In this document: positions 1,506-37,342 of the stretch, piece by piece | Layout of the letters: every line of letters begins with the position of its first letter | How positions within the stretch are numbered: the stretch's first letter is position 1 | Origin: Henckelia pumila | Lineage: Eukaryota; Streptophyta; Magnoliopsida; Lamiales; Gesneriaceae | Assembly (NCBI RefSeq): GCF_033568475.1 | Contig: NC_133122.1 | Coordinates: forward strand, 165,504,130-165,568,129 | Direction of reading: 5' to 3' | Length of the DNA: 64,000 nt | The notes under the pieces: generated by a model | What the model saw: the letters and a program-made list of their open reading frames with translations, nothing else | What the model was told of the DNA's origin: nothing | Databases searched by the model: none | Program-made: the position numbers and the translations under genes

Positions 1506-1951
1506 AAGGCTTTCTCACTTTATCAGATGAATCCTTAAATGCTTCGTCCTTTTATTTTTCAGTTGTCTTGTCACTTTCTGAGATCTGGGAAACTGTAATT
1601 TCGAAATGTAGCGTGTAGCTTTTTGTATTTGAAGTTCGGTAGATATCTCAATCGGTAGGTATGTCTGTGTTCCGTTTGACATACAACTGTTTTGCATTAT
1701 TCGTTGGTTGACAAGCTTTAGCTGACGTCGGTAGATATGTCTTTGTTTGGTTGACGTACAACTGCTTTGCATGCTTTGGCTGACGTCGGTAGATATGTCT
1801 TTGTTCGGTTGACGTACAACTGCTTTGCATGCTTTGGCTGACGTCGGTAGATATGTCTTTGTTCGGTTGACGTAGCTGCTTATACAAATAAATGGCGGCC
1901 GACTAAACAACAAAGTATTGTTTTGTTATCACCAAAAGTCAGGATTCAACA
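1506..1951 (-). mobile_element. 3' LTR of the copia element, truncated
   Basis: Nearly identical to 21860-22307. It begins (minus strand) with TGTTGAATCCTG at 1951 and holds only the first third or so of the 1256-bp LTR. The R/U5 half with the TATA box is missing where it meets the Athila LTR. Confidence 0.9.
1633..1873 (-). repeat. 58-bp tandem repeats in the copia 3' LTR
   Basis: Three good copies start at 1721, 1779 and 1837, preceded by one degenerate copy. Each unit holds gctgacgtcgg and ttgacgtac, so each carries two ACGT-core, TGACG-type motifs. The same array sits in the 5' LTR at about 21990-22230. ORFs read through this array are artefacts of the 58-bp period. Confidence 0.9.
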
Positions 1952-2143: not shown

Positions 2144-4800
2144 TTACTTCCTTTGCATTCTCTGTGGAGAGGTGTCAACTAATTTTCTGGATACTTTCCC
2201 CTTTTTGACATCACCACAGGTGAGATGAGAGATGATCTCTCCTAGTTGAGCACCGACAGTGGTTTGAAAAGTGTCAATACAGGATTCGATATGAGCGGTT
2301 AAGTCAGCCTGAAGAATTGAGATTTGCATTGAAGTATGCTCATTCGTGCGACGAACAATTTGAGAGACCTGTTCGGCAATAGTACCCATAGCTCGAAGAT
2401 TGCGTTCTTTGTAGTTTTTCAGCTCAGTGACGCATCTTCCGAGTTCAAAAGACAAACTGTTAAGACGAGACATAATCGCTGATCTTGTGTTGTCAATGCT
2501 AGCATCTTGTCCTTGTATGCGATTGCTGAGTCGTTGTGTGGTCACGCGAAGATCTTCTACGATGCGTTCCAAAGCATAATTCGCTGGTTCGGAGTCAGGA
2601 ACTAAATTTGAAGCAAGTGTGGCAGTTTGATCTTTTGGAGGTGAGACTTTGGTGGTCTCGATCGATGAACAGACATCGATTTCAATCACCTGATCTGTTT
2701 GGTGAATTGGACTGGAGGGCTGCAAGCCGTCAGTCGTCGGTTGAGGCGAGTCTTCAGAATGGATCTCTAGAAGAGGAGATGTTGGTTGTTCATCATCAAA
2801 AATTGATTGCATAACATCTGAGACTGATGTGAGTGGGATCTCAGGAAGATTTTCACCATCAACTGTTGTGATTGGGTCAATCAGTTGAGGGTCTGTGATG
2901 AGATCAGCACTTGATGTAGGTTCAGCGGCTGATGAGGAAGCAAACGTAAAGTATGCTAAGGGACATTCGTCTTGTGCCGCAATAAATTCCTGTTCCTCTG
3001 CTGAGAATACAAAGTCAGATGCTTCCGAGTTATCATGAGAATCTAGAAAAGGGATCATGGCCTGAACTTCGTTGTTATACGCCTGTATGTATTCATCGTC
3101 CGGTAGTGGGATGGAATATTTGAGACGATATTCTCTTAAAAAGGTGTCAGTGACATCAACTGACTGCTTAAGACGTAAGATGACTTCAGTGTTATCTTTG
3201 GCAGTTTTGTTCATCGGCTGATAGTGCTCTTCTCTTTTGGCAAGAATATATCGGGCGAGACTATCATGGAGCTGAACGTCCACCAACTTATATCTGCCGA
3301 GTGCTGTTTCAAGACTTGATGTGGCAGTGAGAATGAACATCTTGTCTTCTAATTTGGAAAGGTATTCCAGTTTATTCTCAAGAAAGATCTTAGAATATGA
3401 AGCATTCAGACGATAGTGCACCCATTCATCAAATTCCTGTAGTTTGAACCACACAGCCCGGAGAATGCTAAAAATAATGATAAGAACCTCCATTTTTCCT
3501 ATGGATTGGGCTTTTTGAAATGGGATGAGAGGTGCTTTTCCTTTGCCCTGAGGGTCGGTTGAAGTTGTGGTCAGTACAGAGAACGAGGGTTCCTGGATAG
3601 TGATTCCTTTTGGTGGAGGAATCTGGGTCTTCACAACCAACTCTTGTGTTCTCAAGATTTGCTGACTGATGACGGCAGCAATATCAACTTATGAAGTCGG
3701 TGAGGGCAGAGAAATGGGTAATGTGGTAACAATGGTGCTGTAAATTGGTTCGGAAGTTATTTGGGGAATTTGGATTGGGTGAGTAGGTAGTGTTTCGGAT
3801 GTTGAGACTTCAGTGGTTGCTGTGGTCAGTTGAGACGTAGGGGTGTGAACTATAGATAGCAACTTGATCCTCTTTGGTTTCGGGTGAGATGGCTTGGGAG
3901 CCATTTTTGCTTTTTGGGATGGAGAGGGGTGAGCGAATACTTGAACTAAGGGAGCATTGTCACTAACCTCATCCTCCAGATCAGAGTCCACTTGAACAGG
4001 TTGTCTGATCGGTCAAGTACGCTTGACTTGGGGAGCTGCAGTGATTTTGGCAGTTTGTTGATCTGCCCCAATTTCTCGTTTGATAGTCCTGAGCTGGTCA
4101 GAAGTCACCTGATTCTTGTTTAAGAACAGAGGGATTGTGACTGCATTTAACCATTTGGCTGCATGAAGGACTTCATAGTCTGAGGAGTCAACGTTTAGGG
4201 CTGCAAGTAGATAACATATCTGTAGTGCAAAACCTTCCGATTGTCATTTGCCTCTAATCATTTCACATAAAGTAGAGTAAAGAATTGAAGACCAGTTAAA
4301 GTTCAACTGGGAGGCAATGGAGGCCATGTACTGAAGCTTTTCAATAGTGATCTTGTCATAGGAACCAGCCTTGGCTAAAAGAGTTTTTGCGACTATGTTA
4401 GCCAATAGTCTGTATGCTGGCTTCAAGCTTTGTTTGAGGTCATTGACCTTAATGGGTGAGCCATCAAGTGTGAATTGAGCTGCCCAGTGGGTTGCATTAC
4501 CGTCAGGTAAGTCTGCGCATTTCATCAAACCGGTTGTGGGCAAGTTAAAAGTATCGCCAAAGAAACGTTGATTGAACTCGATCTTCTGTCCTCTGATGAT
4601 ACATATGATGCTTCCATGATGTATTTGGACGGATTCAAAGAATTCCTTGACCAGATCATAGTTGACCGTTGATCCAAAGCTAAGAAATTTGCAAAGTCCT
4701 GAAGCTTCAATCATGTTGAACATGGCTGAAATTTTCGCATTTTGGATGGAATGGATTTCATCGAAATTAATAGCCAGACAAGTCTTTTGGATAGACATCC
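2144..4800 (-). pseudogene. Long post-pol ORF of the copia element, unknown function, three in-frame stops
   Basis: One minus-strand frame of about 885 codons runs from an ATG at 4800 (MSIQKTCLAINF) to a stop at 2144. It is interrupted only by TGA at 4244-4246, TGA at 4013-4015 and TAA at 3689-3691. The frame could open earlier, up to 4939, but the 4800 start is chosen because the conserved-looking part begins there. The N-terminal 190 residues form a compact, probably helical domain with a Leu-Pro-Thr motif after a phenylalanine-rich stretch. The middle is rich in Pro, Ser, Thr and basic residues. The C-terminal third is acidic then helical, and may form a coiled coil. From memory it resembles hypothetical proteins abundant in Lamiales genomes that are often mislabelled as splicing factor 3B subunit 1-like; this was not searched. 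It sits where some SIRE-type elements carry an env-like ORF, but no signal peptide or membrane segment is seen. Function is unknown. Confidence 0.7.
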
Positions 4801-5266
4801 TTGAGTTTTTCTGCAAACAAGATATTTGATCAATAGTTTGTGAAGAATGCAGATGCAAAAAGTGAATATGAGTTCGATTTGCAAGACAAGTTTTTGTGTG
4901 AGATGTGTGAAATAATCGGTAAATATGGTGCCACGTCACCTAAACTTTTTAATTTTGAAAAAGAGAGAGAGTGAAAGATACGCGGTAAATTAAAGTAAGG
5001 ACGATGAATATAATATAATAAAATAAAATATAAGGTGGTTGGATTCGAATTCCAATGACTGTAATCAGTCTTGATTGTCTGACATCAGGATATGTGATGT
5101 TTTGGACATGCCGTCGATTTGCAGAGTAATGATTTTATGCGTGATCCTTTCAGTAAACGATTGATATCACTCGATGTTTCACCTTCTCCTTTTTATGCCT
5201 ATAAATATGAAGTGAATATATCAGTCGTGTAACAATAAGAAATCATTCAATAAATCAAAAAACAAT
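4801..5266. promoter_or_regulatory. Putative divergent promoter between the post-pol ORF and the first antisense gene
   Basis: This gap separates two head-to-head reading frames. On the plus strand a TATA box (tataaata, 5200-5207) lies 60 bases before the ATG at 5267, with an A-rich leader. On the minus side, ggtgccacgtcacc at 4927-4940 is an almost symmetrical ACGT-core site of the kind bound by plant bZIP factors, and AT-rich sequence at about 5005-5030 could act as a TATA region. Whether it drives transcription is inferred from sequence only. Confidence 0.5.
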
Positions 5267-5686
5267 ATGCCGGGTCCGGGAGGTGATTTGGCAGTAGAAT
5301 TCGCCGCTGCTCTAACGAGAGTAAGGTCTCGAGAGTACAAAGATGTTGTGTTCTTCCAGGTTGTTGAAGAAATGGAAACGATTGAAGAGCTGCGTCTGTT
5401 TCTCTCAACTGGCCATCCTCATGATTCTGAGAGAGACTATGCTGCCCTTGTGCAGCAATATGAAGACAAGCTGGGGTCGTCGGACCCGATGTTAGTCTTC
5501 AGTCCAGAGGGACTGTTGCTCCTCTTGCTCTACAAAGAGCTAGAAGGACTGGAGCGCATCCGGCCGGATGATCTTGGCTACGTTCGCTCTCCTACCAGGG
5601 AGCTTACGTTCTTCATGCTCTCTTGGAAAAGTGAGGTGGAGAAGGAGATCGGTAGAGCTCTTGAGGCCTTTAGGGTTCTCATGTAA
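5267..5686 (+). CDS. Antisense mini-gene 1 inside the copia element, unknown 139-residue protein
   Basis: An intact 139-codon ORF lies on the strand opposite to all other copia genes. It has a TATA box at 5200-5207, an A/C-rich leader ending caaaaaacaat before the ATG, and a poly(A) signal aataaa at 5710-5715, so it looks like a complete small plant transcription unit. The protein is predicted to be mostly helical, with a leucine run at about residues 83-89 and a charged C-terminal helix containing W-K-S-E-V-E-K-E-I. No signal peptide or clear membrane span is seen. Its last 65 residues align with those of the gene at 6084-6464, sharing a P, an L-rich helix, an I..(E)DD turn, W...E...I..A and a final FR. 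The two may be diverged duplicates. I do not recognise the family. Confidence 0.6.
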   Translation: MPGPGGDLAVEFAAALTRVRSREYKDVVFFQVVEEMETIEELRLFLSTGHPHDSERDYAALVQQYEDKLGSSDPMLVFSPEGLLLLLLYKELEGLERIRPDDLGYVRSPTRELTFFMLSWKSEVEKEIGRALEAFRVLM

Positions 5687-5709
5687 TATGTCCTTCTCTC
5701 TTTTTTTGA

Positions 5710-5715
5710 AATAAA
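5710..5715 (+). terminator. Poly(A) signal of antisense mini-gene 1
   Basis: A canonical aataaa lies 24 bases after the stop codon, in the context gaaataaac. It follows a T-rich stretch and precedes a TTTATTTTG region. Confidence 0.55.
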
Positions 5716-6010
5716 CAAATTTATTTTGCGCATTATCTGCTTTTATGAAACAGTAAGCAACGAGCAATAAAGTTACGTCACATCACACATTAAACGAGAT
5801 ATCATCGAGAAAGAAAACAGATATTAATAATGACAAATCACTGTTGCAAATAATAACTATTTTAAGCTTTTAAATAAATGCAAGAGTGCACAAATATCGA
5901 TAATATAGGCTTATCAACAGTCTGAGCCAGTATCTCTTTCGGATTTTCTCGAAGATAAATCAGTGGGTAACTGTTGGCATTCATGACCTCTGGCCTTCGG
6001 TATTCTTCGC

Positions 6011-6083
6011 CTATAAATACTGTGATGTAAACAAGTAAATAGATCATAGCTTAGTTGAAACAATAACAAATAACAAACAAAAA
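6011..6083 (+). promoter_or_regulatory. TATA box and leader of antisense mini-gene 2
   Basis: The TATA box in gcctataaatac matches the context of the first mini-gene's promoter (gcctataaata). It is followed by a leader that ends in CAA/AAC repeats and caaaaaATGG, a favourable plant start context with A at -3 and G at +4. Confidence 0.55.
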
Positions 6084-6464
6084 ATGGATGAATCCGATTT
6101 CAAAAGACGAAAGTCCATCTACAGAAGCAGAGTCGTGGAAAGAGGCATGAGCGTGTGGCATATGATGGAGGCCATTCGCCGTAAATATCGTTCAGGTGTT
6201 GTGCCTCTTAGTCCAGGCCTTGCTGCAGGGTTGCTATGGTGCAAGCGTTGCTTGCGAACCCAGAGCACTGGTGTGGTGCTAAGGCCATCTGCTATTCGAC
6301 TCATGATGTTGTTGGCAGAAAGAGACGAGATGCAGAATATCTGTTTTGAGGATGACGTCTGCAATGGTCAAGGCTTGCTCTCTGTCTGGATGATAGAGTG
6401 GAGTCGTGAAATGAGAAGCAGAATTTCTGCAGCTCATGATGACTTCAGACTCACTAGGGGTTAG
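6084..6464 (+). CDS. Antisense mini-gene 2 inside the copia element, unknown 126-residue protein
   Basis: An intact 126-codon ORF lies 397 bases downstream of the first antisense gene, in the same direction and with the same layout: TATA box at 6012-6019, AC-rich leader and poly(A) signal at 6509-6514. The N-terminal 20 residues are basic (FKRRKSIYRSR). The rest looks helical, with an L/M-rich helix at about residues 71-79 and a C-terminal helix with W-S-R-E-M-R-S-R-I-S-A-A. The C-terminal half aligns with that of the 5267-5686 protein. The 3' end converges with the 3' end of pol (stop at 6544). I do not recognise it. Possible roles in small-RNA control or in regulating the element are speculation. 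Confidence 0.6.
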   Translation: MDESDFKRRKSIYRSRVVERGMSVWHMMEAIRRKYRSGVVPLSPGLAAGLLWCKRCLRTQSTGVVLRPSAIRLMMLLAERDEMQNICFEDDVCNGQGLLSVWMIEWSREMRSRISAAHDDFRLTRG

Positions 6465-6508
6465 GGTTAAGCACTCCATGTAATGAAAGTATTTTGTGCT
6501 TGAAATGA

Positions 6509-6514
6509 AATAAA
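6509..6514 (+). terminator. Poly(A) signal of antisense mini-gene 2
   Basis: aataaa lies 45 bases after the stop in the context aaatgaaataaatg. It is about 30 bases from the convergent stop codon of pol, so the two transcripts would end nearly tail to tail. Confidence 0.55.
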
Positions 6515-6543
6515 TGATTATTCCCCCTAAACTCATGCTTGTC

Positions 6544-7293
6544 TTAGTTTAAATCAATTAGACCAAGAATATTGCGAAAATAAGAAAACTTAGCGTCCGG
6601 CAATGGCTTGGTGAAAATATCTGCTGCCTGCTGGTCAGTAGGTACGTAGATCATTTGAATCTCCTTTTTGAGTACGTGTTCATGAATGAAATGATGACAC
6701 ACATCAATGTGCTTGGTTCTGGAATGCATCACTGGATTTTGAGTGATTGCAATAGCACTCGTGTTGTCACAAAATATAGGAGCTTTATTTGACTTGATTC
6801 CATAGTCCCTAAGTTGTTGTTGTATCCACAGTATTTGAGCACAGCAACTACCAGCTGCAAGGTATTCTGCTTCAGCAGTAGAGGTGGCAATTGATGTTTG
6901 CTTCTTACTGAACCATGAAATAAGTCTATCTCCCAAAAATTGACACGATCCGCTAGTGCTTTTACTGTCAATATTGCAACCTGCATAATCTGCATCTGAA
7001 TAACCAACAAGGTTAAATTTTGAGTCTTTGGAGTACCAAAGACCCACATTTGTAGTGCCTTTAAGATATTTAATAATCCTTTTGGCTGCAATGTAATGTG
7101 ATTGCTTGGGTGCTGCTTGAAATCTTGCACACAAACATACAGCAAACATAATATCTGGTCTACTGGCCTTAAGATAAAGTAATGAACCGATTAGACCTTG
7201 ATACGTAGTTACCTCAACTGGTGCTCCTGCTTCATCTTTGTCAAGTTTAATAGAAGCACTCATATGGGTAGAAATGGCAGAACAATTCTCCAT
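6544..7293 (-). pseudogene. Copia Pol: RNase H domain
   Basis: This segment encodes the end of the RT thumb and the RNase H that degrades the RNA of the RNA-DNA hybrid. Visible copia signatures are the RPDIMFAV block (about residue 45), the GYSDADYAGC motif with its catalytic Asp, STAEAEYLA, the conserved H-I-D block and ADIFTKPLP near the C-terminus. A frameshift at about 7294-7340 separates it from the RT segment. The true C-terminus is the stop at 6544. Confidence 0.9.
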
Positions 7294-7324
7294 ACCAAAC
7301 TTCTTGATAAGTTCTTTGGTGTAC

Positions 7325-7987
7325 TTAGTTTGATTTATGAATTAAGATGCCATTATCCAGCTGCTTGACTTGTAGTCCGAGGAAGAAATTTAATTCTCCC
7401 ATCATGCTCATTTCAAACTGTTCCTGCATCATCTTAGAAAATTTCTCGCATAGACAAGGATTAGTTGATCCAAATATAATATCATCTACATATATTTGAA
7501 CGAGTAAGATGTGATCTCCTTTAACAAACTTAAAAAGAGTCTTATCGACCGTTCCTATAGTAAAGGCATGATCTAATAGGAATTGAGATAACGTATCATA
7601 CCATGCACGCGGTGCTTGTTTTAAGCCATAAAGAGCTTTATCAAGCTTAAAAACAAAATTAGGAGTTAAAGAGTTGATAAAACCTGGTGGTTGTTCAACA
7701 TATACTTCTTCTTGAAGTAGACCATTGAGAAATGCTGACTTGACATCCATTTGATATACTTTGAAGTTTTTGTAAGCAGCATAGGCAAGGAATATTCTGA
7801 TAGCCTCAAGCCTTGCTACTGGAGCGAATGATTCGTCAAAGTCAATGCCTTCCTCTTGTCGGAATCCTTGAGCAACCAGTGGGGCTTTATTTCTTACCAC
7901 TGTCCCATCCTCATTCAATTTGTTGCGAAACACCCATCGGGTGCCTATGATGTTTTGATTTGTCGGTCGAGGGACTAAATTCCACAC
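7325..7987 (-). pseudogene. Copia Pol: reverse transcriptase domain
   Basis: The sequence contains the copia RT blocks in order: [28 protein letters not shown], the [11 protein letters not shown] block with its catalytic Asp, [13 protein letters not shown], the [10 protein letters not shown] active site and FFLGLQV. This is a full-length RT core. A one-base loss near 8005 puts it out of frame with the integrase linker, and a second frameshift ends it at 7325, so no continuous Pol can be made. Confidence 0.95.
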
Positions 7988-8007
7988 TTTGTTTCTAGTG
8001 AACTGGT

Positions 8008-8778
8008 TTAGTTCTTTTGCATTGTTTCAATCCAGCTAGCATCTTGTAATGCTTTATCTATGTGTTTGGGCTCTAGCTGTGAAATGAAAGCTGCATGCAA
8101 TAGCTCATCAATTAGTTGATTTCGTGTACGAATAGGTGCAGCAGGGTTACCGATGACCAGATCAGGTGGGTGATTTTTACTCCACCGAAGATTTGGTCTA
8201 AGAGGATTTGCGCCTGTTTGAGTGTCTTCCTCATCCCTGATTGCGTTGTTAGGTTCAATAGCACCCTCTCCGATTATCTGTTCGTCATTGATGTGATCTA
8301 CTCCTCCTTTATTGGGTTGAATAATCTCTTCTGCTAGATCATCTCTTGTGTCAGGAGGGTCATCACTATCACTTTTATCCTGTAGAAAGGTTGATTTTAG
8401 CCTGCTGGCTAAATCTTGAATGTTAGTTTGAGACTTTCCTGCACATACAGTAGTTTCATCAAAAATGACATGAATGGATTCCTCTATAGTCAGTGATCTT
8501 TTGTTGAACACTCTGTAAGCTCGGCTAACTGAGGAAAATCCAACAAATATGCCTTCATCTGCTTTTGCATCAAAAGCTGTCAGGCGATGTTTTCCATTAT
8601 CATGAATATAACAAACACAACCAAATACTTTAAAATACGAGACATCAGGTTTTGTGCCATTCCAGATCTCATATGGTGTTTTGTTGTGTCTCTTGTTAAT
8701 CATAGATCTGTTTTGAGTGTAACATGTTGTGTTAATTGCTTCTACCCAGATTCTTTGAGATAAATTGGAATCAGCAAT
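8008..8778 (-). pseudogene. Copia Pol: second half of integrase and linker
   Basis: This begins right after the nested insertion, inside the integrase core. It shows the KTPYEIWNG motif, the FGC(V)CY block and the acidic linker ending DASWIETMQ that leads to RT. The matching first half lies at 17970-18374. The insertion duplicated gcaat at 8774-8778 and 17965-17969. Confidence 0.9.
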
Positions 8779-10352
8779 TGTAGCGACCCGACCCGGATCC
8801 ACTACCTAATCAGAGTTAAGAGCATAATTAAGCATGCATTAAATAAAATCGCTGCGGAAGACTTAAATACAAGCAGACCGGCAGAATACAACCGGCTAAC
8901 AAACTCGATTTATACAACCCAATCGAATTACTTAGATAAGAACCTACAACTAAGTACTGCTGTCTTCAAGGTCACTGGCTCCTCCAGGCTCCTCGTGATC
9001 AATCCTGCACCTACACCTGCCCCATCGAATAGGGTATCCAGATACACAGAAAATACTGGACGTGAGCTCTAAGCTCAATACAAAAGCACGGATAAACATA
9101 CAAGTATGATGCATGCAAATGACAGGGTATCCATATCTGGGATAACTGTATACGAACTGCTCAGATTGGCGCCTGGAATATAAGCTCGTCACATCGGGGT
9201 AGCTAACCACTGTGCGCGACCACTCATTCCCGAAGCACGAACGTGGACCACGGAGTCCTCCAGGTATCAGTACCTAAGGGTACTAGATATCAAACGTCCT
9301 AACAGGGCTGAGTAACCCTAACTGGCTCATCTCGAAAGATATACAGATGTACAGGCACAAGATGATATGCACATGCCGCATAACAATAATAACATGCAAA
9401 CACATAAATGCAACATATAAGCATGCATATCCGCTGGCAATCTCAGTCAGTACTTACGTACCTTTCTAAGGCAGTCCTAGTAGTCCCACTCTAGTTTCCA
9501 ATCCTATCATCAAGTCTACAATTCAAATACCCATGCATTATTCAATAAGCTCTAAAAGCCTTGACTAAGCTATTGCATAATCCTAAATAATTTAAGGAGA
9601 CCATAGCTATACCTGCATCCGTCGTCAGCCCACTGATGGCGACTATCCTGCAACTAGGGGCACACCCCTGCTGCAGCTCCACAGCCTCGAGCACTGCTCC
9701 GCTGCATGAGCACTGCTCTGCTACTGTGTCAGACACTGTCTGACTATACTAAAATATGTTCCCTACTCCAACTCTAAAATAAGAGTACCCAAAGCCCTAA
9801 ATAGAACCTTGCAGGCGAAGGAGAGGAACTGGGAATTCGCACCAAATGAGGAGCTCGTACCTCATATTTATAGAGCACGTTCGGATCGTCCGATCCTGAC
9901 TTCGGATTGTCCGAACTGCTTCGGGCCGTCCGATCATCCGATCTCCGCCACGCGTCCAACCAATCGCATGCAACCATACACCTGTCCAATACACTGTTCG
10001 GGTCGTCCGAACTGGATCTTCGGATCGTCCGAACATCTCCCGGATGACATCACCAATGACGTATTATTTTGGGACAGCTGGCCGCATGAGTTCGGATCAT
10101 CCGAACCCACTTCGGACTGTCCGAAGTCTTCAGAGCTTCCGAAGCCTGGCTCCGTCCATGTTCGGATCGTCCGAACTCAAGTTCGGAGCGTCCGAACCTG
10201 CCGAACCATATCCACCATTTTTGAGTGTCTTGGATCCATTTCTGGACTCCTTTAATTCATCTGGAATTTCCTTAATCATGTTTTACTTAATCTCAACATG
10301 AATATATGATTAATTACTCATTAATCATTAGTTTTGGATACGGGCTACTACA
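8779..10352 (-). mobile_element. 3' LTR of nested Tekay-like element
   Basis: This is a complete 1574-bp LTR. On the minus strand it starts TGTAGTAGCCCG and ends GGGTCGCTACA. A TATA box (minus TATAAATA, about 9864-9872) follows the palindrome array at 9880-10198, so that array lies in U3. ORFs seen here on either strand are repeat shadows. Confidence 0.9.
9880..10198. repeat. Palindrome array ttcggatcgtccgaa in U3
   Basis: About ten copies of a 15-bp near-palindrome, (t)tcgga-3 nt-tccga(a), are spread over 320 bases directly upstream of the LTR TATA box (minus strand). The three central bases vary (tcg, ttg, ccg, ctg, gcg), while the two 6-base arms are kept complementary. Confidence 0.9.
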
Positions 10353-11928
10353 TTCCCACCACCTTAAAAGGATTTCGTCCTCGAAATCTAGAGTAAACCC
10401 CAGGAATATAGTATAAACCATTCGTCCAATTCATTAATAGTTTCGGTTCAAAACATTGGGTCGAATAACCTTTGACAACCCCAATCCTTGCTAAAATTGT
10501 GTCACACTACTGACTATCGTCAGTTATCCATCGATAACCGCAACAACACGGCACCTTCGGTCCAAATTGCCGACTGTATCAGCCACACTGCCTACAAATC
10601 TTAGCGATGACACTCCTACTAAGGTCGTAACTAGCCATCAGCAATTCTCTAGACATGCACGAACTCCATCGCTGCCCACGATAAAACCAGATACAACGCA
10701 TTGTATTTCACTGGTCTAACGGTAACATCGCATCCCTTGACGTTATCGCAAAGTTCTAAACAAATTGATCTAGATTCGACTCTCGGTCAAATCCTAGATA
10801 TCCATTTTTCAAGAACTCGTGTGGGTTACTTTTTATCATGAAGGATAAAATGTATCTTCCAAAACAGTACCTTATGCGAATAGAAATGGCAACTACCGGC
10901 CACCAGTTCGCAAAGCAATCGCATCACTGCCACCACTCTAACCATTTGAAATCCTCAGACTGATTGCGATAAACCTTGATCCGAATCCCGCTATCGTAGA
11001 TAGCATCTAATTTATCCCCTTAGTCATCCTATAATGGATAACCACCAAATCTTGACAATTCCTGGCGTCATAGTACGTACCTTCAGAACTTACTTTTCCC
11101 AATGAATGTTTCCCAAAGAGTACCAACTAAGTAAACAGATGACAAAATCTCTGCTTATTAACCCCAATTGCTACAAAATCCTTGTACACAATTTCTTGTT
11201 TTAATGCACCCTTCGAGGTCGTCGCCTCGAAATTCACTATCATCCTGCTGAAACTCCCAGATGGACCAACACCATCCTCAGCAGTAGTCTATATCAGATG
11301 CTTACTTCTATCTCGGAACTAGAGATAGTATCGACGAAAACGATTCCGATTAATCCTGTTCCAGATAACCAAATCCTTGGCTCCCTAGCGGGGATAACCA
11401 AACGGATTCAACTATATCCCGCACAAAATCTATCAATAGTAGCGGCAATCCCGCTATCTCAACCTCTCAATGACACAGCATATCAGAACGCACTGGGATA
11501 TCAGTGACAACAACCCTGCCAGACTCAGAAAAAACAAGTCTCAGCTGCTGTCTCATCCCATGAAATGACTAATGCTAACTTGCTAATGCTCATTGAAATC
11601 CATAAGCACTTGTCGAATGACCTCTCAAGAACAACTCTTGAGACATATATTGGAAGCACCCCAAGCAAAACACTCTGACCAATAGTCCCCAAAATTTGTC
11701 CACTGACAATCCTGGGACAATCACTGAATCCTATTTCCTCAAACTGGATCAATAATTGCTAACACCAAGCAATGCTCAGATCAAAATCCGTCACTGGTAG
11801 CCAAAGCAACGTTATCAACAACTACGATCACAAGAGCCAACTAATGACCACTTTCGTGATCCGCAGAATCCAAAAGTCTCGATTCCCGCATTCCTGGAGA
11901 TCCCTTATCGACTAAAGAATTTTCTAAT
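10353..11928 (-). mobile_element. Degenerate internal region of nested Tekay element, part 1
   Basis: There is no long ORF on either strand. Next to the LTR, the minus strand reads a residual FRGR-type coding end and then the polypurine tract AAGGTGGTGGGAA (10353-10366). Weak similarity to the noncoding internal end at about 53220-53530 (for example tgatagtca and the gtcaaagg.tattcga block) suggests both belong to one family lacking pol. Confidence 0.55.
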
Positions 11929-13799
11929 TGTAAGAGTGGGTGCCCAGTGAGCCAACTGTGTGGCTATGGGCTTTGATGACTCTTTGTATAAACAATCTTT
12001 TGTTTAATATTATTTACACTTTTATTTATGGCAATGACTTTATATTACTTCATATTGTTATATTGTGATATACTATTGTTGTCTTGATAAAGACCTTGAA
12101 TATACTATAGTGTATGTAAGATGTGGTAGAACATGGAGATGTCTATCATGAAATACATCTTATAGTCACTGTATATTCTAAAAACCGTTCCTAGTCGATT
12201 GAGCCATCCGATAATAAGGATAAGGATCGCTCGAGTTTGAGACTAGCATTTGCGATGCGGAGTACCACGTTTCATTGGTAGGGAACATGGAGATGTTCGA
12301 AGCATGCAAATGGATATTCATAGGATGAATAATCGAACTACCCTATCCGGACTTTCCAAGTGGTTATCACTTATCGAGTGGATAAAGTCCGCGGTTTTGG
12401 TTGTACACCATTAGTCCTTACGACTTGAAACATCATGGAGACTCTATATACTAGTGCTGTGCTTTGACTCGTTTACCGACTCTATGGGGGTCATCAGGTG
12501 TCGAGATTGGGTACAGTTACGACACATATAGGAGTCAATGCATTGTTGTCAAGGATTCACCACATACTTGCGAGTGTGGATATCCTATGCGATCTGAGGA
12601 GATATTAGTGTGACAAATCTCTGGCCAGAGTACTTGATGTGATTTAAGAAATGGTTTCTTAGTAGCACATGCGATGTCACTAATTTGATCTTCAAGATGT
12701 ATTGCATAGTTATCGAATCTTGAGCGACTCTCGATATACCAATGGTTGTTGATTCGATCGGGATATATGGTTGAAGGGACCGTACTGTACGCTAACCAAA
12801 ATCTACTGGTTCTTGTAGGCACTATCAGTGATACCTAGGGAATCATGGGGCGATGTTGCTAGGCGCTTTACCTTGATTCGTTGGGCAAGTCGGAAAGTGT
12901 TGTTCCGAGTCACAAGGAGTTGTGAGCCCACGGCTAGCTGTATCCCTGAACCATTGAGGGTCACACAGTGTAATGGAGTTTTAATCCCCGTTGAGATAGT
13001 TAAATTTAAAGAGTTAAATTTAATGAACTAAGGAGTTGGACTTCTTAAATAAGAGTAAGGGAGTAGGATTTCCTAAAATGACATAGGGATGGACATTTTT
13101 GGAAACCACTGAATTCGGATTCAGGAAAATTTATTTTGACTTTAAAATGTGCAGAAATGGTTTCTGTGCACATTGGTGAAATTGGTTCATCGATCGGAGT
13201 CACGATGAATTTTATATTAATTTCTGAACGTGCGGGCTTTGCTTGTCGGGCCCTAGCTTATGACTAATGGGCCCTAAGGTGTTAGTGGCCTGCATTATAA
13301 ATAAGTTATTGCAGTACAGAAATTACACACAACAGGTCATAATTTTTTAGAGCAAAAATCGAAAACCCTAGTTCCTCTCAAAGATATTTCGGCCGCCCCC
13401 CCTTCACTCTGTCAGAGAAAATTCCGGTCTGTGATTTTGAATTGCAGTCAGGAATAACGAATCAGATTCGTTTAATCTCTTCGCAGAAAAACTTCTGATA
13501 GATTTTCTAGTGCAATCTATCAGAGGGATTTAAACCCCATTCGTGGACCTGATTGAAGGAGTTCATCAGTTCCTGGGAGATACAAGAAGCGCAGAGAAAT
13601 CTGTGTGGTGTCCATTAATCTCGCTTCGAGATTGAAGGTAAAATTTAATTAATTGTTATTTGAATTTTACACACACAATAATTTAATCGTTGTATGGTTG
13701 ATACCCACACCATGGAATTGTTCCATGATAAAAAATTTTTAAACTTCCGCTGCACCGGGTATCAATCGTGATTGATCTGACCGCCAGTTTTTTCCAACA
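11929..13799 (+). mobile_element. 1.87 kb solo LTR inside the Tekay element
   Basis: The sequence starts TGTAAGAGTGGG, ends TTTTCCAACA and is flanked by ctaat / ctaaa, a 5-bp duplication with one mismatch. It has no ORF of note. The end is preceded by the common LTR text cttccgctgcaccgggtatc. No internal region or second LTR exists, so this is a solo LTR left by LTR-LTR recombination. Which strand is sense is uncertain; plus is chosen because the end resembles the R-U5 side of large plant LTRs. Confidence 0.75.
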
Positions 13800-14782
13800 C
13801 TAAATGCACTTGAATCGTTATATCAAAGCATACCATACTTAAAGTACCATTCCCAGTACTTCTTGATTCACTATATCCCATCTGTACTGATTGGAATAAT
13901 CTGATCAATCAAATCGATTTACTATAGCTCTCGCCATGCCTGACGATACCAATTCTAATCAGACAATCATTGATCGATGAAACTCTCATGGCCGATCAAT
14001 ATCGATGATCTCATTGCCACACGCCCGCAGATCCCAACTACTTGGAATCAAAAGAATCACCGCTGATTCAATCACTCATCTTTGACAGAGTCAGACAACA
14101 TTTACATGTAGTCACTAGTGCTAAACCTGCACCAGTCTATACATACTATCACTGTCTATCTTCATCCAAGATGATCATAAGGACTTGTTCAACCCAAGCC
14201 CCAATACAAGTCCGAAATATTTCAACTATCGTTGAACATGCTCCTGATAACTATATCTCTTGCTAAGACTGCAACAAATCGAGACTGAGGTTACTTGCCG
14301 CGGTGTCCCACCTGAAATCACTACCAAGTGTACACTGTCATAAATCACGCTATCCTCACGCCTCAAATAGTCATGTACAATCCTTAGCATCGGATATAAT
14401 CTATCACTGAAGGAAACCATCAATGCTGAAAACTACTCATCCCCGAGTCAAATGTTTCAGGAATTTCACAAACTCATCTCCTGGATAGCCCCTATCACAA
14501 GAGCATCCAAACCCCGACTAGATCCACTAGTCTAGCAGTATCCAATAGACTAAAACTATCTGCTCAGAGTACGCACTCGTCAAGGAAAATCCCTCCAAAG
14601 ACTGGTCCTTATGACAAAACTGCAAACCAATATCTCTGATGACAGTCAGACGATATCTAAACCGCCGATACCTAACCAGGCATCCAATCCAATGTCATAC
14701 CCCGTCGTGACTGTTACCAAAACTCTAGACTAAGTAGTCTTCCCACCGCCAGATCCTGAAGCACGAAAGCTTTCAGGAATTC
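13800..14782 (-). mobile_element. Degenerate internal region of nested Tekay element, part 2
   Basis: This continues the internal region after the solo LTR. It is rich in C and A on the plus strand, with only short ORFs (for example 14042-14266) that resemble no family. I see no retained gag or pol motif. Confidence 0.5.
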
Positions 14783-16072
14783 TGTAGCGACCCTACCCGG
14801 ATCCACTACCTAATCAGAGTGATTAGCGCAAGCAACAATAATTAAAGCGTTAAATAACGGATGATTTCAAAGTACAACAAATCCAATCGGCAGAATACAA
14901 CCGACGATAGAAACAGTGTATAATTCTTTATACAACCAAATCAAAATTAGGGTATCAGAATCCCTAACAAACTACTTCTGCACGGTAGCAACCTCAACCC
15001 TGCTGGGAACCATCGGGACCGTCCAGCCTCAGACCTGACTCGCCACAAGGTGTCCCAAAACACGAAACATAAAGGGCGTGAGCGACTACGCTCAATACGG
15101 AAGCAATGATATAAATAAAAATATGAGCATGCACATGACTTTAAAAATCAGGGTTAAATCACTTTACTCATGGCGCCTGGAATACACAGTACCGGGCAAG
15201 AGAGCGACTCCGCGTGGTACTCGTATATTCCCAAGACACGAATCCTCAGGAAGAATCGCCTCGACTGATGGAAACTGTCATGACTCACATTATACCCGAT
15301 GCAGTCTCCGTAAAAACATATGCATGTGCTAAAAACAGTAAAACATAGCCAATACAGCACATACATCATGCATCACACACATATGTATAAATATCATGCC
15401 GGCTATCTCGGTCAGTACTTACGTACCTCTAACACTGCAGGTCAACTCCTAGCACACCCGTCTAGGTCCAAAGCCTACAAGTCTGCTCTACTGCGTCTAC
15501 ACATGCAAAAGTCCATGCATCACTATAAACGCTCTAAAAGCCTTAACTAAGCTATTTCATACTCCTAAATATTTTTAGGAAGCCAAATTATACCTTCGTC
15601 CATCGTCAGCCCGCTGGTGTAGAATCGCCTCAAAACTTAGGCACACCTCCGCTACGACGCCGGGATCGCTAGGCAACTTCCGGATTCCCAATAGGATGCC
15701 TAGAACTCCGTAGATCTAAGTAAGAAGGTTCGAAAACCAGAGGAAAGGGGGGAAATCGGTGAACAGAATGAGGGCTCGGACCCCTTATTTATAGACGGCG
15801 ATCGGAACGTCCGATCTCTCATCGGAACGTCCGATCGCGAACGGAGCGTCCGATCGTGACATCGGAACGTCCGATGTCACCTCACGTGCGTAAGCAGTGA
15901 CATCATCTTGCTGACGTCGGTGATGACGTCAGCCCTAGCCAGAACGGAACGTCCGATCCTCCAACGGAACGTCCGATCTGTGCTTCGGAGCTTCCGATCC
16001 ACTTTGGATAATTTTAGGCAAAATTTAGTAATTAATTTCCTTAATTACCTTGATTAATTGCGGGTCACTACA
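14783..16072 (-). mobile_element. 3' LTR of a second Tekay family
   Basis: The LTR runs from TGTAGCGACCCTACC to GGGTCACTACA (1290 bp). It shares only the LTR ends and general layout with the enclosing element. A TATA box (minus CTATAAATAAGG, 15785-15794) lies just below a palindrome array. A polypurine tract (minus GTGGGGGAGAA) follows at 16073-16084. Confidence 0.85.
15800..16000. repeat. Palindrome array atcggaacgtccgat in U3
   Basis: Six to seven copies of the 15-bp motif atcggaacgtccgat, and variants with one changed arm, lie directly upstream of the TATA box. The arms differ from those of the 9880 array (atcgga/tccgat rather than ttcgga/tccgaa), but spacing and position are the same. 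Confidence 0.85.
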
Positions 16073-16192
16073 TTCTCCCCCACTTAAGAAATTTCGTCCT
16101 CGAAATTAAATTTTAAGGAAAACATAGTACGCAAAATCAATGCTCTTATTACAACTGAACAATATACATTCGATACAACAGAGTACAAAATC

Positions 16193-16458
16193 TTAAAACA
16201 ACTCGGGGTGCTTGGCTAACATCCGACTCTCCAACTCCCAAGTAGCTTCCTCTGTACCTCTGCGTTGCCACTGTACCATCACCAACGGTATGCGCTTGTT
16301 ACGAAGCACCTTGTCCTTCCTGTCGAGAATCCTGAGAGGTTTCTCCACATATGACAAATCTTGGTCTATTTGCACCTCAGTCGGACACAAGATGTGGGAC
16401 TGATCCGCCACGTACTGTCTCAACAAAGACACATGAAACACATCATGAATCTTTGAAA
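16193..16458 (-). pseudogene. Integrase C-terminus and chromodomain of the second Tekay family
   Basis: The frame reads KIHDVFHVSLLRQYV, then EVQIDQDLSYVEKP, VMVQWQRRGTEEATWE and ends HPELF. This is the C-terminal end of a Tekay/Del-type Pol with its chromodomain, which in such elements directs integration to heterochromatin. The rest of pol is gone: at 16458 the frame runs directly into the LTR of the enclosing element. Confidence 0.9.
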
Positions 16459-17964
16459 GATTTAAATACAAGCAGACCGGCAGAATACAACCGGCTAACA
16501 AACTTGATTTATACAACCCAATCGAATTACTTAGATAAGAACCTACAGCTAAGTACTGTTGTCTTCAAGGTCACTGGCTCCTCCAGGATCCTCGTGCTCA
16601 ATCCTGCACCTACACCTGCCCCGTCGAATAGGGTATCCAGATACACAGAAAATACTGGACGTGAGCTCTAAGCTCAATATGAAAGCACGGATAAACATAC
16701 AAATATGATGCATGCAAATGACAGGGTATCCATATCTGGGATAACTGTATACGAACTGCTCAGACTGGCGCCTGAAATATAAGCTCGTCATATCGGGGTA
16801 GCTAACCACTGTGCGCGACCACTCATTCCCGAATCACGGACGCAGACCACGGAGTCCTTCAGGTATCAGTACCTAAGGGTACTCGATATCAAACGTCCTA
16901 ACAGGGCTGAGCAACCCTAACTGGCTCATCTCAAAAGATATACAGATGTACAGGCACAAGATGATATGCACATGCCGCATAATAATAATAACATGCAAAC
17001 ACATAAATGCAACATATAAGCATGCATATCCATTGGCAATCTCAGTCAGTACTTACGTACCTTTCTAAGGCAGTCCTAGTAATCCCACTCTAGGTTCCAA
17101 GCCTATCATCAAGTCTACAATGCAAATACCCATGCATCATTCAATAAGCTCTAAAAGCCTTAACTAAGCTATTGCATACTCCTAAATAATTTAAGGAGAC
17201 CATAGCTATACCTGCGTCCGTCGTCAGCCCACTGATGGCGACTATCCTGCAACTAGGGGCACACCCCCGCTGCAGCTCCACAGCCTCGAGCACTGCTCCG
17301 CTACATTAGCACTGCTCTGCTACTGTGTCAGACACTGTCTGAATATACTAAAATATGTTCCCTACTCCAACTCTAAAATAAGAGTACCCAAAGCTCTATA
17401 TAGAACCTTGCAGGCGAAGGAGAGGAACTCGGAATTCGCACCAAATGAGGAGCTCGGACCTCATATTTATAGAGCACGTTCGGATCGTCCGATCCTGACT
17501 TCGAATCATCCGAACTGCTTCGGGCCATCCGATCTTCTCATCGGATCGTCCGATCTCCGCCACGCGTCCAACCAATCGCATGCAACCATACACCTGTCCA
17601 ATACACTATTCGGGTCATCCGAACTGGCTCTTCGGATCGTCCGAACATCTCCTGGATGATGTCACCAATGACGTATTATTTTGGGACAGCTGGCCGCATG
17701 AGTTCGGATCGTCCAAACCCACTTCGGACCGTCCGAAGTCTTCAGAGCCTCCGAAGCCTGGCTCCATCCATGTTCGGATTGTCCGAACTTAAGTTCGGAG
17801 CGTCCGAACCTGCCGAACCATATCCACCATTTTTGAGTGTCTTGGATCCATTTTTTGACTCTGTTAATTCATCTGGAATCTCCTTAATCATGTTTTACTT
17901 AATCTCAACATGAATATACGATTAATTACTCATTAATCGTTAGTTTTGGATACGGGCTACTACA
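16459..17964 (-). mobile_element. 5' LTR of nested Tekay-like element, end-truncated
   Basis: It matches 8861-10352 closely but lacks the first 80 or so bases on the low-coordinate side, where it abuts the second Tekay family. It keeps its own copy of the palindrome array (about 17479-17809) and TATA box (about 17464-17471). The primer binding site is lost with the truncation. Confidence 0.9.
17479..17809. repeat. Palindrome array in U3 of the second LTR copy
   Basis: This copy matches 9880-10198 plus one extra unit (atcggatcgtccgat near 17538). Several arms differ between the copies by C-to-T type changes (for example tcgtcc to tcatcc), as expected after methylation of CpG sites. Confidence 0.85.
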
Positions 17965-18978: not shown

Positions 18979-21006
18979 CTATTTGGGTCCGAATTGGATT
19001 AGACCTTTTGGAACCCACACCTGAATTACTCTAATAGTTTTACCCGTGTGAGTGTTTTTAAGGTGAGTCGGTAGAGGTACACGATATGAATTTGTGTGTG
19101 AGCTAGGCTTTACAGTGTACTGTTTGAACTTCTGATCTGTGTTATTAAGTCTATATCGTTTTTGAATAGGCTTATAATTGAAGTGTTGGTTATGTGTCAC
19201 CCGATGATTCCTGTACTTGAGTTGAATTGGTTCAAACCTTGGTTGTTTGAACTTAGTTTGGTTTCTCATTCTTTGTTCATTCAATCTTGGTTTATTCCAT
19301 GTCTCTTCTTTCCTTGGGATCTTAGGTTTCACATATCCTAGTCCTTCACGCTTACCTTTTTCATAGCGACTTGGCTGTTTAACATGTATATCTGGTTCAA
19401 CATGTTCATATATCGTACTAGATCGAACAAATCTCATCACATTGGGATTGTTCCCACTAGAGTACGATTGAGTATTTTCTTTTGATCTAGTACATTCATT
19501 TGATCCATATCCAAGACCGGTTTTATCACCTGCTTGTTTCTGGTTCTCATGTATCTTATCCAAAGAGACAGAAGCCTTATTCCACGCATTGATTGTTTTA
19601 AGAAACTTTTGATTTTCAAATAAAGTAGCTTGGAATACTCGTTTCATACTATCATTCTCAGTAGCTAACAGATTTAGCTTAGTCTTTAGACCATCAAGTT
19701 CTTTTTGCTGTAAACAGCTAGATTCCCTTGATTTATCAATGAGACATGCTTTTTCTGTTTTTGCTTCCTCGAATGATATAGAAAGCTTCTTATACTCAGT
19801 GACCATCTCATTCAGTGTCTGAATGAGTTCCTCTTGTGTAAAGTCAGATGAGTTGAAGTCAAATACCTCAATGTCGTCTTCTTCATGTATGGAGTTAGCC
19901 ATGAGACATTGAACTTGCTCTTCCTCGCTTTCCTCAGATGAGCTATCTATATCGGTTGAATCAGATTATGTTTCAGCCCATTTGATTTTTCCTTCGTCTG
20001 CAACTAGTACCTTTTGATCCTTCTTGTTTCGATATGTTCTACTTCCTTCTTTGCCTTTCTTCTTCTCATAGTGCTGCTTTCTTTCTTCATTCTTAGGTTT
20101 AGTACAATCTGCAATAAAATGGCCTTGCTTGCCACAGTTAAAGCATGCGGGACCATCCTCTGTATGGTCTTGTTTGTAGTAAGGTTTAAACTTTTTATTA
20201 TTACGCATAAATTTTCCAAACCTTTTGATAAAGAGAGACATAGCTTCTCCACTCATTTGTTCAGCTGTCTTCTTTGTTGTATCCTCGATCGGTTGAGATA
20301 GGATAGTTGTCGTTAGTGACTTGGTGGGGTTTGAAGCTGATGGTTCTTCCTCTGTTCGGATTCCAAGTTCAAACTCATATGCTTTGAGATATGTAAACAG
20401 ATCATGAAGCTCTAGCTTGTTCAGATCTTTTGATTCCCTAATGGCTATGGTCTTGACATCCCATTCTCTGGGTAGTGCTCACATAACCTTCAAAGCAATT
20501 TCACGATTAGTGTATATTTTTCCAAGAGAAATTAATTCACAAATAATATTGTTGAATCTTTCGTCAAACTCAGTCATTGTTTCTCCTGGTTTCATCTTGA
20601 CGTTGTCAAACATCTGTATTGCTATAGTGAGTTTGTTTTCTTTGGTTTGGTCGTTCCCTTCGCACAGTTGAGTGAGTTTCTCCCAAATTTCTTTGGCGGT
20701 AGAGAACGCCTTGATTTTGCTAAACATATTTTTGTCCAGCGTCTTGTACAGTATATCTTTGGCTACGTTATCAAGATTTACTTTCTTCTTATCCTCAGTA
20801 GTACACTCCATTCTGGGTTTCTCGACCATCTGTGGTTCTCCTCTTGTTATGGCTACAACATTGTTGACTTTGAGAATCTTCATGGGTCCGTCAGTGATAA
20901 CGTACCACAGGTCATCATCTCGAGCAGAAAGATGTGCCTGCATACGAATTTTCCAGTCATCATAATCTTCTTTAGAGAACATAGGAATTTTATTTAAATA
21001 AGTCAT
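18979..21006 (-). pseudogene. Copia gag with CCHC zinc knuckle
   Basis: A single minus-strand frame begins with an ATG at 21006 (MTYLNKIPMFSKEDYDDW), the start of the copia capsid (UBN2-type) domain. It is interrupted by stops at 20479-20481 and 19966-19968 and ends at 18979. The capsid core contains AKEIWEKLTQLCEG and FDERFNNII. The nucleocapsid knuckle CFNCGKQGHFIADC is at about 20120-20161. An acidic stretch and a long coiled-coil-like segment follow, then a basic Lys/Arg/His/Asn-rich tail. This very long gag with a C-terminal coiled coil fits large SIRE-like elements. No complete Gag can be made from this copy. Confidence 0.9.
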
Positions 21007-21038
21007 GATGAATATCAGTAGCTAAATAGAAAAACCCT

Positions 21039-21051: not shown

Positions 21052-22307
21052 TGTTGGGGATTGATAACGTGGGTAGAGGGGGGGGGGGTGAATACACAAT
21101 AATGGTAGTCTTTAAAATCTAACGCAATATGGTTGAGTAAATGTTAGTTCACTCGACCGGTTTTCTTTTAGCCTGCTAGAGATATAAGAGCAACTAAGAT
21201 TAGTGCGGAAATAGCTCTCAATATGCTAGATGATATCCATGAAATGATGCAATGCAATAACGTAAGTAGACACAGATATGTTTCTTGGATGTTTGGAGCT
21301 CAATATCCTACGTCACCCCTTCTTCCATCTCGGAAGTATTTACTAGAAGACTTTGGTTATTACAACGTCTTGCAATACACCCGATCCAAGTTAGGACTTA
21401 TCCAATGCCTAATATGGAACTCCTAGATTCATAGTGATAAGATTTAAAGCTCTTATCAAACTTTTCTTCAGATGGTGATGATGATTGTCTTAGTTTCTCG
21501 AGGACTTAAGACTTCTCAAATCCTTGTATCAGGTAGCGTTCTTCAAACGATATCTGGATTTGAGCAACCCTTGAAAAGATCTCTTCGAAGATCGGATAAG
21601 GCTGTTTAAGCTAAGGGTTTTCTCTTTGAGCGGTTGAGTATTCAAGATAGGTTCGAGAGCTCAGATAGACAGATTCTCAATAAGCGTTGTTGTGTTGTGT
21701 TTTCTGTCTAGAAAGGCTTTGATATATATAGCCTTTGTTTTCAACGTCTTTCTTCTTTGTCCAACGGTAAGATTTCCCTACTGATAAAGTTTTCTGAATA
21801 TTTCGTATTGGGGGCGCCTTTAATTGTCTATTCAATGTGTCGCTCACATTGAATGCTATTTAAGGCTTTCTCACTTTATCAAATGAATCCTTAAATGCTT
21901 CGTCCTTTTGCTTTTCAGTTGTCTTGTCACTTTCTGAGATCTGGGAAACTGTAATTTCGAAATGTAGCGTGTAGCTTTCTGTATTTGAAGTTCGGTAGAT
22001 ATCTCAGTCGGTAGGTATGTCTTTGTTTCGTTTGACATACAACTGTTTTGCATTATTCGTTGGTTGACAAGCTTTAGCTGACGTCGGTAGATATGTCTTT
22101 GTTCGGTTGACGTACAACTGCTTTGCATGCTTTGGCTGACGTCGGTAGATATGTCTTTGTTCGGTTGACGTACAACTGCTTTGCATGTTTTGGCTGACGT
22201 CGGTAGATATGTCTTTGTTCGGTTGACGTAGATGCTTATACAAATAAATGACGGCCGACTAAACAACAAAGTATTGTTTTGTTATCACCAAAAGTCAGGA
22301 TTCAACA
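21052..22307 (-). mobile_element. 5' LTR of the copia element
   Basis: This 1256-bp LTR runs (minus strand) from TGTTGAATCCTG to AATCCCCAACA. It contains the 58-bp repeats at about 21990-22230 and, downstream of them in the sense direction, a TATA box near 21720-21730 (minus CTATATATATC). A G run on the plus strand at 21077-21088 marks the U5 end. Confidence 0.9.
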
Positions 22308-29800: not shown

Positions 29801-31117
29801 CACAAGCAAATGACCAATCCGCACCTAGAGAATGATCCCTAGAGCAGAATATGCTCAACAGAATAAATTCTCCCTAGTCCCTCCCTAGCATGTGCTAGAA
29901 CTAGAAGAAACCGTAAGCAAAATACACGCATCCAAATAACTACCCCATGCCCCCCTTTTATACTGACTCATAAAATAACTAACCCCATCCTATTTTAATT
30001 CTAACAAATGTATATTTTATGTTGTTCCTATTTGGATCCAGCCCATTATCACACATAAATCCAAACCCACTATTACACATAAAAGCCTGTAAATTCTACT
30101 TACTATAGAAAAGACATCAAAAGTTAGGTGCAAATGTGGGTTCTGGCCTAAATCAATAACTTGGATGCATTATAATGCTTAATATAGATGTCACGTGTTT
30201 CCGAAGCATTGCCTCTTCATGTTCAACCGTGCATCATTGTGCATGTTGCCAAACTACTAGTGATGGTTCAGGACTAAGAAATGTTTCATGATCATTTAAT
30301 TTAAGGAGGTGGTCTAAATGGCGTGCTCATGTAATATGAAGTTTGGATAATTTGAAAGCATAATAATTGGGAAAATATTTACAACTACCTACATCCCTAA
30401 ATCATGACTCATGAATGGAATGAGTGTGGTGCTCAAGATGGTATACAATCAAATTGTATAATATTTTTATTTGTTAATTTGTTGATTATTTACTAATTTT
30501 ATATAAAAGATTATAAAATATCAATAAAAGATGAATAGTTGGATATTATTAAATTTGTGAGTTAGATTAACCAAAATCCTCATCATTGTATTTGAAAAGA
30601 TTGTCAAATTGACTAAGGAATGTCGCTGACTGTAAGTGGAGTTTCTTTCCTGAATAATGCCGGGACTTTTAAGTTTGGATAAAATTCAATGTCACGTGTG
30701 TGAGAAAAATTCAAAATTTATGGGAATCTTTTGTAACCTTGGGTTCAATATGATGTGCTTGGTGGAGTACAAGAGTGGTGAATACTTTATAACTTAAAAC
30801 TCTTAACGTTTAAATGTTAATCAAGAAGGTGCATTGAAAGTATTTGATGGGGGGGAGGGAGGGAGGGAGGGGTGGTGGACTGGTGGTGGTTTGCTTGATT
30901 CTCTGGTATGTTCTGTTATTTTTCATCTACTTTTATGTAAATATCTACTGTGTTTCAAGATTTATATTTTAGCTTAATTCATGCTTACAGTCTAAAGATG
31001 CTCAATCTTCTCTAACATCTATGAATACCAGAATCCTAACTTCAACTTATTCCACTAATCAGGAAAAGGGAAGAGAAATCGAGGACTGGACAGCATGCTA
31101 AGAATCTGACCGCATAA
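26879..31117 (+). CDS. SUV3-type DExH-box RNA helicase, predicted mitochondrial (exons 26879-29130 and 31063-31117)
   Basis: ATP-dependent RNA helicase of the SUV3 family, which with exoribonucleases handles mitochondrial RNA turnover. In plants the closest match is the longer DExH18-like type. The N-terminal 70 residues are rich in Arg, Ser and hydrophobic residues and poor in acids, as in a mitochondrial presequence. Visible motifs are Walker A GPTNSGKT at about 262-269, DEIQ (the DExH box) at 342-345, then ICGDPSVL, a second RecA domain with [13 protein letters not shown], and [10 protein letters not shown] starting at 514. A SUV3 C-terminal domain follows. The first ATG (26879) is used; an upstream TTG in frame is ignored. 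Exon 1 ends in ...aaaa|gtaagc. Exon 2 (acceptor at 31061-31062) adds 18 residues in frame, for about 768 residues. Without splicing, the stop at 29132 gives almost the same protein (751 residues). Confidence 0.93.
29700..30095. mobile_element. Probable retroelement fragment within the helicase intron
   Basis: Present in the left copy of the duplication but absent from the right copy at about 34995-35015. The text (gagaatgatccctagagcag and following) looks like an LTR or leader of a copia-type element, but no clear ends or target duplication could be fixed. Confidence 0.4.
30849..30878 (+). other. G-run cluster, potential G-quadruplex
   Basis: A run of seven G is followed by three aggg repeats and tggtgg on the sense strand of the intron. 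The right copy of the duplication (about 36125) lacks this run. Confidence 0.55.
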
Positions 31118-37255: not shown

Positions 37256-37342
37256 AATTAATCTATCTATATTTATATCTACGTGTATACTTTATTCTAG
37301 ATCTATATACATATATAGAATAAAGAAGTACTATATAAAATT

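Follow-up and report, generated by a model that had tools for sequence, protein, structure and literature searches.

Two antisense open reading frames under purifying selection are probable accessory genes of a SIRE-like Ty1/copia family in Henckelia pumila

Results

Analysis of a window of the Henckelia pumila (Gesneriaceae) genome, i.e. of the whole stretch of 64,000 nucleotides considered here, revealed that a SIRE-like Ty1/copia family most probably carries two accessory protein genes, ORF1 and ORF2, in antisense orientation, with pol on one side of them and the env-like ORF on the other. Both ORFs were present on the plus strand where a sequence-only reading of this DNA had placed them: ORF1 (5267..5686) specifies an acidic product of 139 amino acids (pI 4.7), and ORF2 (6084..6464) a product of 126 amino acids whose N-terminal half is basic (pI 10.9) and whose C-terminal half is acidic (pI 5.2). 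Sampled copies had pI values of 4.4-4.7 (22 ORF1 proteins) and 7.0-9.9 (23 intact ORF2 proteins). The same reading had set the pair between pol and the 3' LTR, opposite to the element's own genes; the antisense orientation stood, and the location is more exactly the 1.7-kb gap that separates pol from the env-like frame and encloses both ORFs. An antisense position between pol and the 3' LTR defines the aORF-3R (eORF-3'R) class of extra genes, and this is the position that we found for the pair.

The two ORFs exceed what chance would provide. When 4940-6543 was shuffled 1000 times with its dinucleotides preserved, 6 shuffles contained an ORF of 126 or more amino acids starting with ATG on the plus strand, and none contained two. 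Both ORFs are further supported by the N/S ratio of shared variants and by dN/dS (see below), and by codon statistics. Trained on the other genes of the window, these statistics ranked the own frame top of six for both ORFs, at low scores of 0.05 and 0.03; the controls pol and env, which scored 0.22-0.25, belonged to the training set.

The carrier of the pair is a minus-strand Ty1/copia element. Repeat comparison within the window revealed, on the minus strand, a portion of the 5' LTR (21862..22307) that matches the 3' LTR (1506..1951) at 97.5% identity, and the element is fairly young. The similarity between the LTRs stops at about 1506 (1470-1530), so that the 3' LTR seems to be truncated. 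The sense genes, all on the minus strand, comprise a gag region named from its position in the element (18979..21021), the 3' part of pol (6544..8779), which is cut by a nested insertion, and an env-like frame (2144..4798) with a weak match to Transposase_32 (E 1.6e-5, 25.3 bits, the curated cut-off being 45). The pol part presumably spans the integrase C-terminal region, RT and RNase H, the domain names beyond RNase H/copia being those that we take the sequence to fit; its RNase H is 94% identical to one H. pumila protein. Stops and frameshifts, noted earlier in the sense genes around the pair, were seen in the env-like frame (three in-frame stops), in RT-RNase H (two frame breaks) and in gag-integrase (more in-frame stops, including those of the gag region, and one frame break).

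A nested LTR element at 8779-17964 appears to split the SIRE-like integrase, and its direct repeats (8858-10352 and 16457-17964) share 94.8% identity. Elsewhere in the window, an intact plus-strand ORF of 751 codons (26879-29134) resembles what we take to be a SUV3-type RNA helicase gene, and 30360-32003 and 35581-37262 form a direct duplication (76% identity, ~1.7 kb). At NCBI, many RNase H fragments of copia elements from Henckelia and Primulina are called 'secreted RxLR effector protein 161-like', which seems a misleading name for part of a retrotransposon.

A polypurine tract lies on the minus strand at 1953-1965 (AAAAAGGGGGAAA, read 1965-1953), and a second tract on that strand, AAAAAGGGGAAAG at 2206-2194, is similar and not identical to it, a likeness stated without a chance control. 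Elements of the SIRE lineage have several polypurine tracts of similar sequence ahead of the 3' LTR (PMC2829016). The features of the element fit this lineage (Sirevirus), and judging from its gene order and env-like ORF we refer to it as SIRE-like.

Each ORF has the appearance of a full, small gene for RNA polymerase II, consisting of a TATA box, an A/C-rich leader, the ORF and AATAAA. These parts had been named for both ORFs in the first reading, and all were located on the plus strand: the TATA box CTATAAATA is found at 5199..5207, starting 68 bases before the ATG of ORF1, and at 6011..6019, starting 73 bases before that of ORF2; A/C-rich leaders precede both ORFs; and AATAAA begins 24 bases past the stop of ORF1 (5710..5715) and 45 bases past that of ORF2 (6509..6514). 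The TATA box is conserved in 36/37 (ORF1) and 37/40 (ORF2) aligned copies and AATAAA in 39/40 and 36/36, respectively. At six divergent loci, described below, TATAAAT is found upstream of ORF1 in 6/6, and a TATA-like box before ORF2 was detected in 4/6 and not seen in the other 2/6. Further CTATAAATA sites of the window, at 61208 and 61935, are followed by no comparable ORF pair. The sequence ACGTCAC, present upstream of both promoters, was rejected as a shared motif, its frequency in the window being that of chance.

Searching the assembly (884.7 Mb) with the 1361-base region that holds the pair yielded 436 first-look candidates, the best 40 of which are 90-100% identical, five of them partial; the alignment consisted of the window and 39 other scored places. 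To be counted for intactness, a copy had to cover the ORF to at least 90% at >85% identity, the window included, a rule that excluded one of the 40 rows (ORF1), four (ORF2), ten (RNase H) and eight (env). ORF1 was intact in 26/39 copies and ORF2 in 23/36, the longer RNase H piece in 7/30 and the env-like piece in 12/32. With most copies of the ORFs intact anyway, the openness of any one copy says little, and we dropped that of the window copy as proof of selection. The claim that the ORFs stay open while their neighbors decay was only mildly borne out, as lesions per codon, in overlapping copy sets, were 0.0029 in ORF1 and 0.0036 in ORF2 vs 0.0058 in RNase H and 0.0053 in the env-like piece. 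The length seen in the window was kept by 29/39 copies of ORF1 and 33/36 of ORF2, and by 8/35 and 5/40 copies of the two spacers.

Other copies of the element were also expected to retain the ORFs, and in the longer loci, all of them close copies, the pair was in place in 8/8, in the constant order env-like, ORF1, ORF2, RNase H, RT. LTR similarity was detected in 7/8 of these loci and an integrase match in 7/8; the copia order INT-RT-RH followed by the 3' region was likewise found in 7/8, locus L054 having no integrase-segment match, and the env-like sense ORF downstream of pol had DNA matches in 8/8. Comparison of tree distances among 26 copies showed that the antisense region correlates with pol (0.53) and with env (0.53; 0/500 permutations), the correlation of pol with env being just 0.03. 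Two of the copies, L011 (C4:56.03 Mb) and L012 (C4:56.04 Mb), are separated by 18 kb in the same orientation, agree at 3341/3358 aligned bases and are perhaps a local duplication.

To separate selection from noise within the subfamily, single-copy variants were taken as mostly post-insertion noise and variants found in at least three copies as having passed through replication, with the variant spectrum of the two spacers as the neutral expectation. Shared variants (at least three copies) of ORF1 had an N:S of 29:32 in 39 copies, a ratio to neutral of 0.34 (CI 0.21-0.54), and those of ORF2 an N:S of 28:21 in 36 copies, a ratio of 0.41 (CI 0.24-0.75), the latter interval overlapping the lower of the non-coding controls (24 frames in four overlapping non-coding segments, 0.55-1.55). 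The corresponding N/S ratios of single-copy variants were near neutral, 1.08 for ORF1 and 0.85 for ORF2, in keeping with selection that acts on the element as it replicates and not on each copy. Fisher tests of shared vs single-copy variants gave p values of 0.0003 for ORF1, 0.047 for ORF2 and 0.00004 for the two pooled. Nine of the ten wrong frames of ORF1 and ORF2 had ratios of 0.68-1.67, while the remaining one, at 0.41, is the minus frame of ORF1 with the same third positions. The shared-variant ratios of the sense genes, in overlapping copy sets, were 0.27 (RNase H) and 0.23 (env-like); conservation of the pair is about like that of the other element genes, the counts resting on copies found by matches to the pair.

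Protein searches of the genome extended the family to divergent subfamilies. ORF1 yielded 852 candidates, and the best 150 all match, 58 at 81-100% and 92 at 56-77% identity; these 150 look like one repeated family. ORF2 yielded 620 candidates, and again the best 150 all match. Among the best 150 of the 852 ORF1 candidates, at least 109 are followed on their own strand by an ORF2 match at a distance of 641-1090 bases, and at least 119 have one within 20 kb; in rows 52-150 of the matches listed, a downstream ORF2 match accompanies at least 65/99. Among the matches listed, the reverse order and the opposite strand each occurred 0 times within 1.5 kb. For 41 of the best 150 ORF1 matches no ORF2 match lies within 1.5 kb among the matches listed, a share that is uncertain.

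We selected six divergent pairs in which both ORFs read open, a choice that entails ascertainment; these represent subfamilies with protein identities of 55-83% to the window pair. NG86 dN/dS between the window and the six loci was 0.14-0.28 for ORF1 (dS 0.53-1.99) and 0.14-0.27 for ORF2 (dS 0.60-1.51), and across all 21 pairs it was 0.14-0.55 and 0.14-0.50, respectively, the closest pair being highest. A Ka/Ks below 1 in other copies, which the sequence-only reading had proposed as a check, was thus obtained from shared variants (0.34 and 0.41) as well as between subfamilies (0.14-0.28). RNase H lies on the opposite strand just past ORF2 in 6/6 of the divergent loci, its best piece at 80-93% identity; at L073 it is in pieces. 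Taken together, these data show that ORF1 and ORF2 are protein-coding and under purifying selection in replicating lineages, inside the subfamily as well as between divergent ones, and that the two travel together, in fixed order, beside the same type of pol.

The alignment of the C-terminal halves of the two proteins had been read as a sign of an old duplication. The alignment held: its Smith-Waterman score of 56 was reached by 2/5000 shuffles of ORF2 and 0/5000 of ORF1, vs a top score of 43 in 192 control comparisons, and scores of 48-56 were obtained in 11 copies with both ORFs intact. The DNA upstream of ORF1 and ORF2 is also alignable (1/2000 shuffles). Profile comparison was colinear and weak, both with close copies (E 0.0004, probability 36%, 66 columns) and with divergent homologues (E 0.0019, probability 14%, 111 columns). 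Common ancestry of ORF1 and ORF2 by duplication of one gene is likely, not proven.

For neither ORF did we find a relative, at an E-value limit of 10, in a set of 5.8 billion proteins that includes pol proteins of Henckelia and Primulina; possible reasons are low expression, masking of repeats or an overlooked match. A collection of viral contigs contained no relative either and is uninformative, because the pol control was likewise unmatched there. Pfam and PDB sequence searches with both ORFs and their homologues detected nothing beyond chance, and Transposase_28 (PF04195) was detected neither in the two ORFs (E up to 1) nor in the homologues (E up to 0.1). In these searches and in the protein set the pair is without relatives, in agreement with the initial impression that it belongs to no described family. 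Two candidate matches were rejected as chance-like: ORF1 with SidM_N/DrrA (E 0.052 and 0.0036), which was seen neither in six homologues nor with their profile, and ORF2 with FAN1 (E ~0.5), which did not appear in the profile search. AlphaFold predicted a helical ORF2 in one of five models, and fold comparison of this weakly supported model gave no informative match.

Discussion

A separate promoter would free the genes from the LTR and would suit a regulator needed under LTR silencing, and for this reason we favor, tentatively, a pair of trans-acting and possibly nuclear regulators that would sustain the element under host silencing. Separate promoters, independent of the LTR, would drive transcription of ORF1 and ORF2 and give rise to two small proteins, one acidic and the other basic in its N-terminal half; working in trans, possibly as a partnership and possibly in the nucleus, these would keep transcription or replication of the element running despite host silencing. 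VANC of VANDAL transposons, a transposon-encoded anti-silencing protein, is a working analogy only, drawn by description, and VANDAL is a DNA transposon, unlike the SIRE-like copia retrotransposon studied here (PMC13317346). A more far-reaching version is doubtful: SIRE-like copia elements of Gesneriaceae may carry an autonomously expressed, duplicated antisense two-protein regulatory module, whose acidic and basic products would jointly, in trans, counter host silencing or time replication. In Ty1/copia, such a module would correspond to VANC and to the accessory genes of retroviruses, and annotation would have missed it because it is antisense and each gene has <150 codons.

The same genes could instead serve as structural or assembly helpers, e.g. 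by associating with Gag in the virus-like particle or with the env-like protein, with separate messages that would make their dose independent of genomic RNA. This reading, which we consider rather unlikely, rivals the regulator pair in the functional step only. The constraint on the ORFs resembles that on RNase H and the env-like frame (overlapping copy sets), tree distances correlate with pol and env alike, gene order is fixed and ORF2 is helical in the one AlphaFold model, all of which suit a helper; neither protein, however, is similar to a known domain, and an antisense, separately promoted gene would be an odd route to a structural protein.

Both roles are proposed by analogy. Were antisense transcription itself the function, antisense RNA would limit or tune the element via double-stranded RNA and the ORFs would be incidental, in keeping with the conserved promoter-like boxes and with the antisense non-coding transcripts described in other retroelements (PMC7264820). 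An RNA function, however, predicts neither the low dN/dS (0.14-0.28) of the plus-strand frame nor indels that spare the ORFs, and since purifying selection acts on the protein frame, we regard a pure antisense-RNA role as improbable. Recent capture of host genes without a function for the element would account for the GC content of ORF1 (0.51) and ORF2 (0.49) vs ~0.31 in the flanking non-coding DNA, but the divergent subfamilies also have the pair, at dS of about 0.5-2 and under selection throughout, so that it is neither recent nor passive; with no relative in Pfam or the 5.8-billion protein set, such capture is very improbable. Chance open frames, for which the youth of an element with 97.5% identical LTR parts might speak, are ruled out by the shuffles and selection tests and have next to no probability left.

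Antisense accessory ORFs as such are already known, e.g. from Retand and from Grande, the latter a Ty3/gypsy element. Antisense ORFs between pol and the 3' LTR, described as of unknown functions, include the plant examples Grande, RIRE2, Retand and PvRetro13, and gene23 of maize Grande is reported to have an upstream promoter of its own, from which it is transcribed, and to encode a nuclear protein (PMC7264820). Compared by description, the pair resembles gene23 in lying antisense between pol and the 3' LTR and in having no clear similarity to other proteins (PMC7264820); unlike the single gene of Grande, it consists of two small tandem genes in a SIRE-like copia element with an env-like ORF on the LTR side, and where the gene23 protein is reported to be nuclear, the pair has only the basic N-terminal half of ORF2 to set against it. 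The TRP28 ORFs of Retand are likewise antisense between pol and the 3' LTR and are common in their lineage, but mostly carry Transposase_28 (PF04195) (PMC11963269), for which ORF1, ORF2 and their homologues gave no match.

For SIRE elements, sense eORFs were reported in 74% at a cut-off of 250 codons, and 582 Ty1/copia elements had extra ORFs, some of them possibly antisense (PMC6317226). Like the SIRE eORF-3'F and env-like ORFs, the pair adds genes downstream of pol; the eORF-3'F is sense and has at least 250 codons, whereas the pair is antisense, has 139 and 126 codons and occurs alongside an env-like ORF (PMC6317226). The word 'antisense' does not occur in the main text of PMC2829016, and PMC3036077, with 12 uses of it, was rejected as a precedent, its subject there being antisense knock-down constructs. 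In the open-licence literature searched, we found no description of antisense genes, and hence of such a pair, in SIRE elements.

The SIRE-like copia family, whose candidate places in the genome number in the hundreds, carries two selection-supported protein genes that are absent from gene lists, and the pair offers a testable case for the role of antisense accessory genes. Given that a survey cut-off of 250 codons would miss the pair, many further accessory genes of small size may exist in plant retrotransposons.
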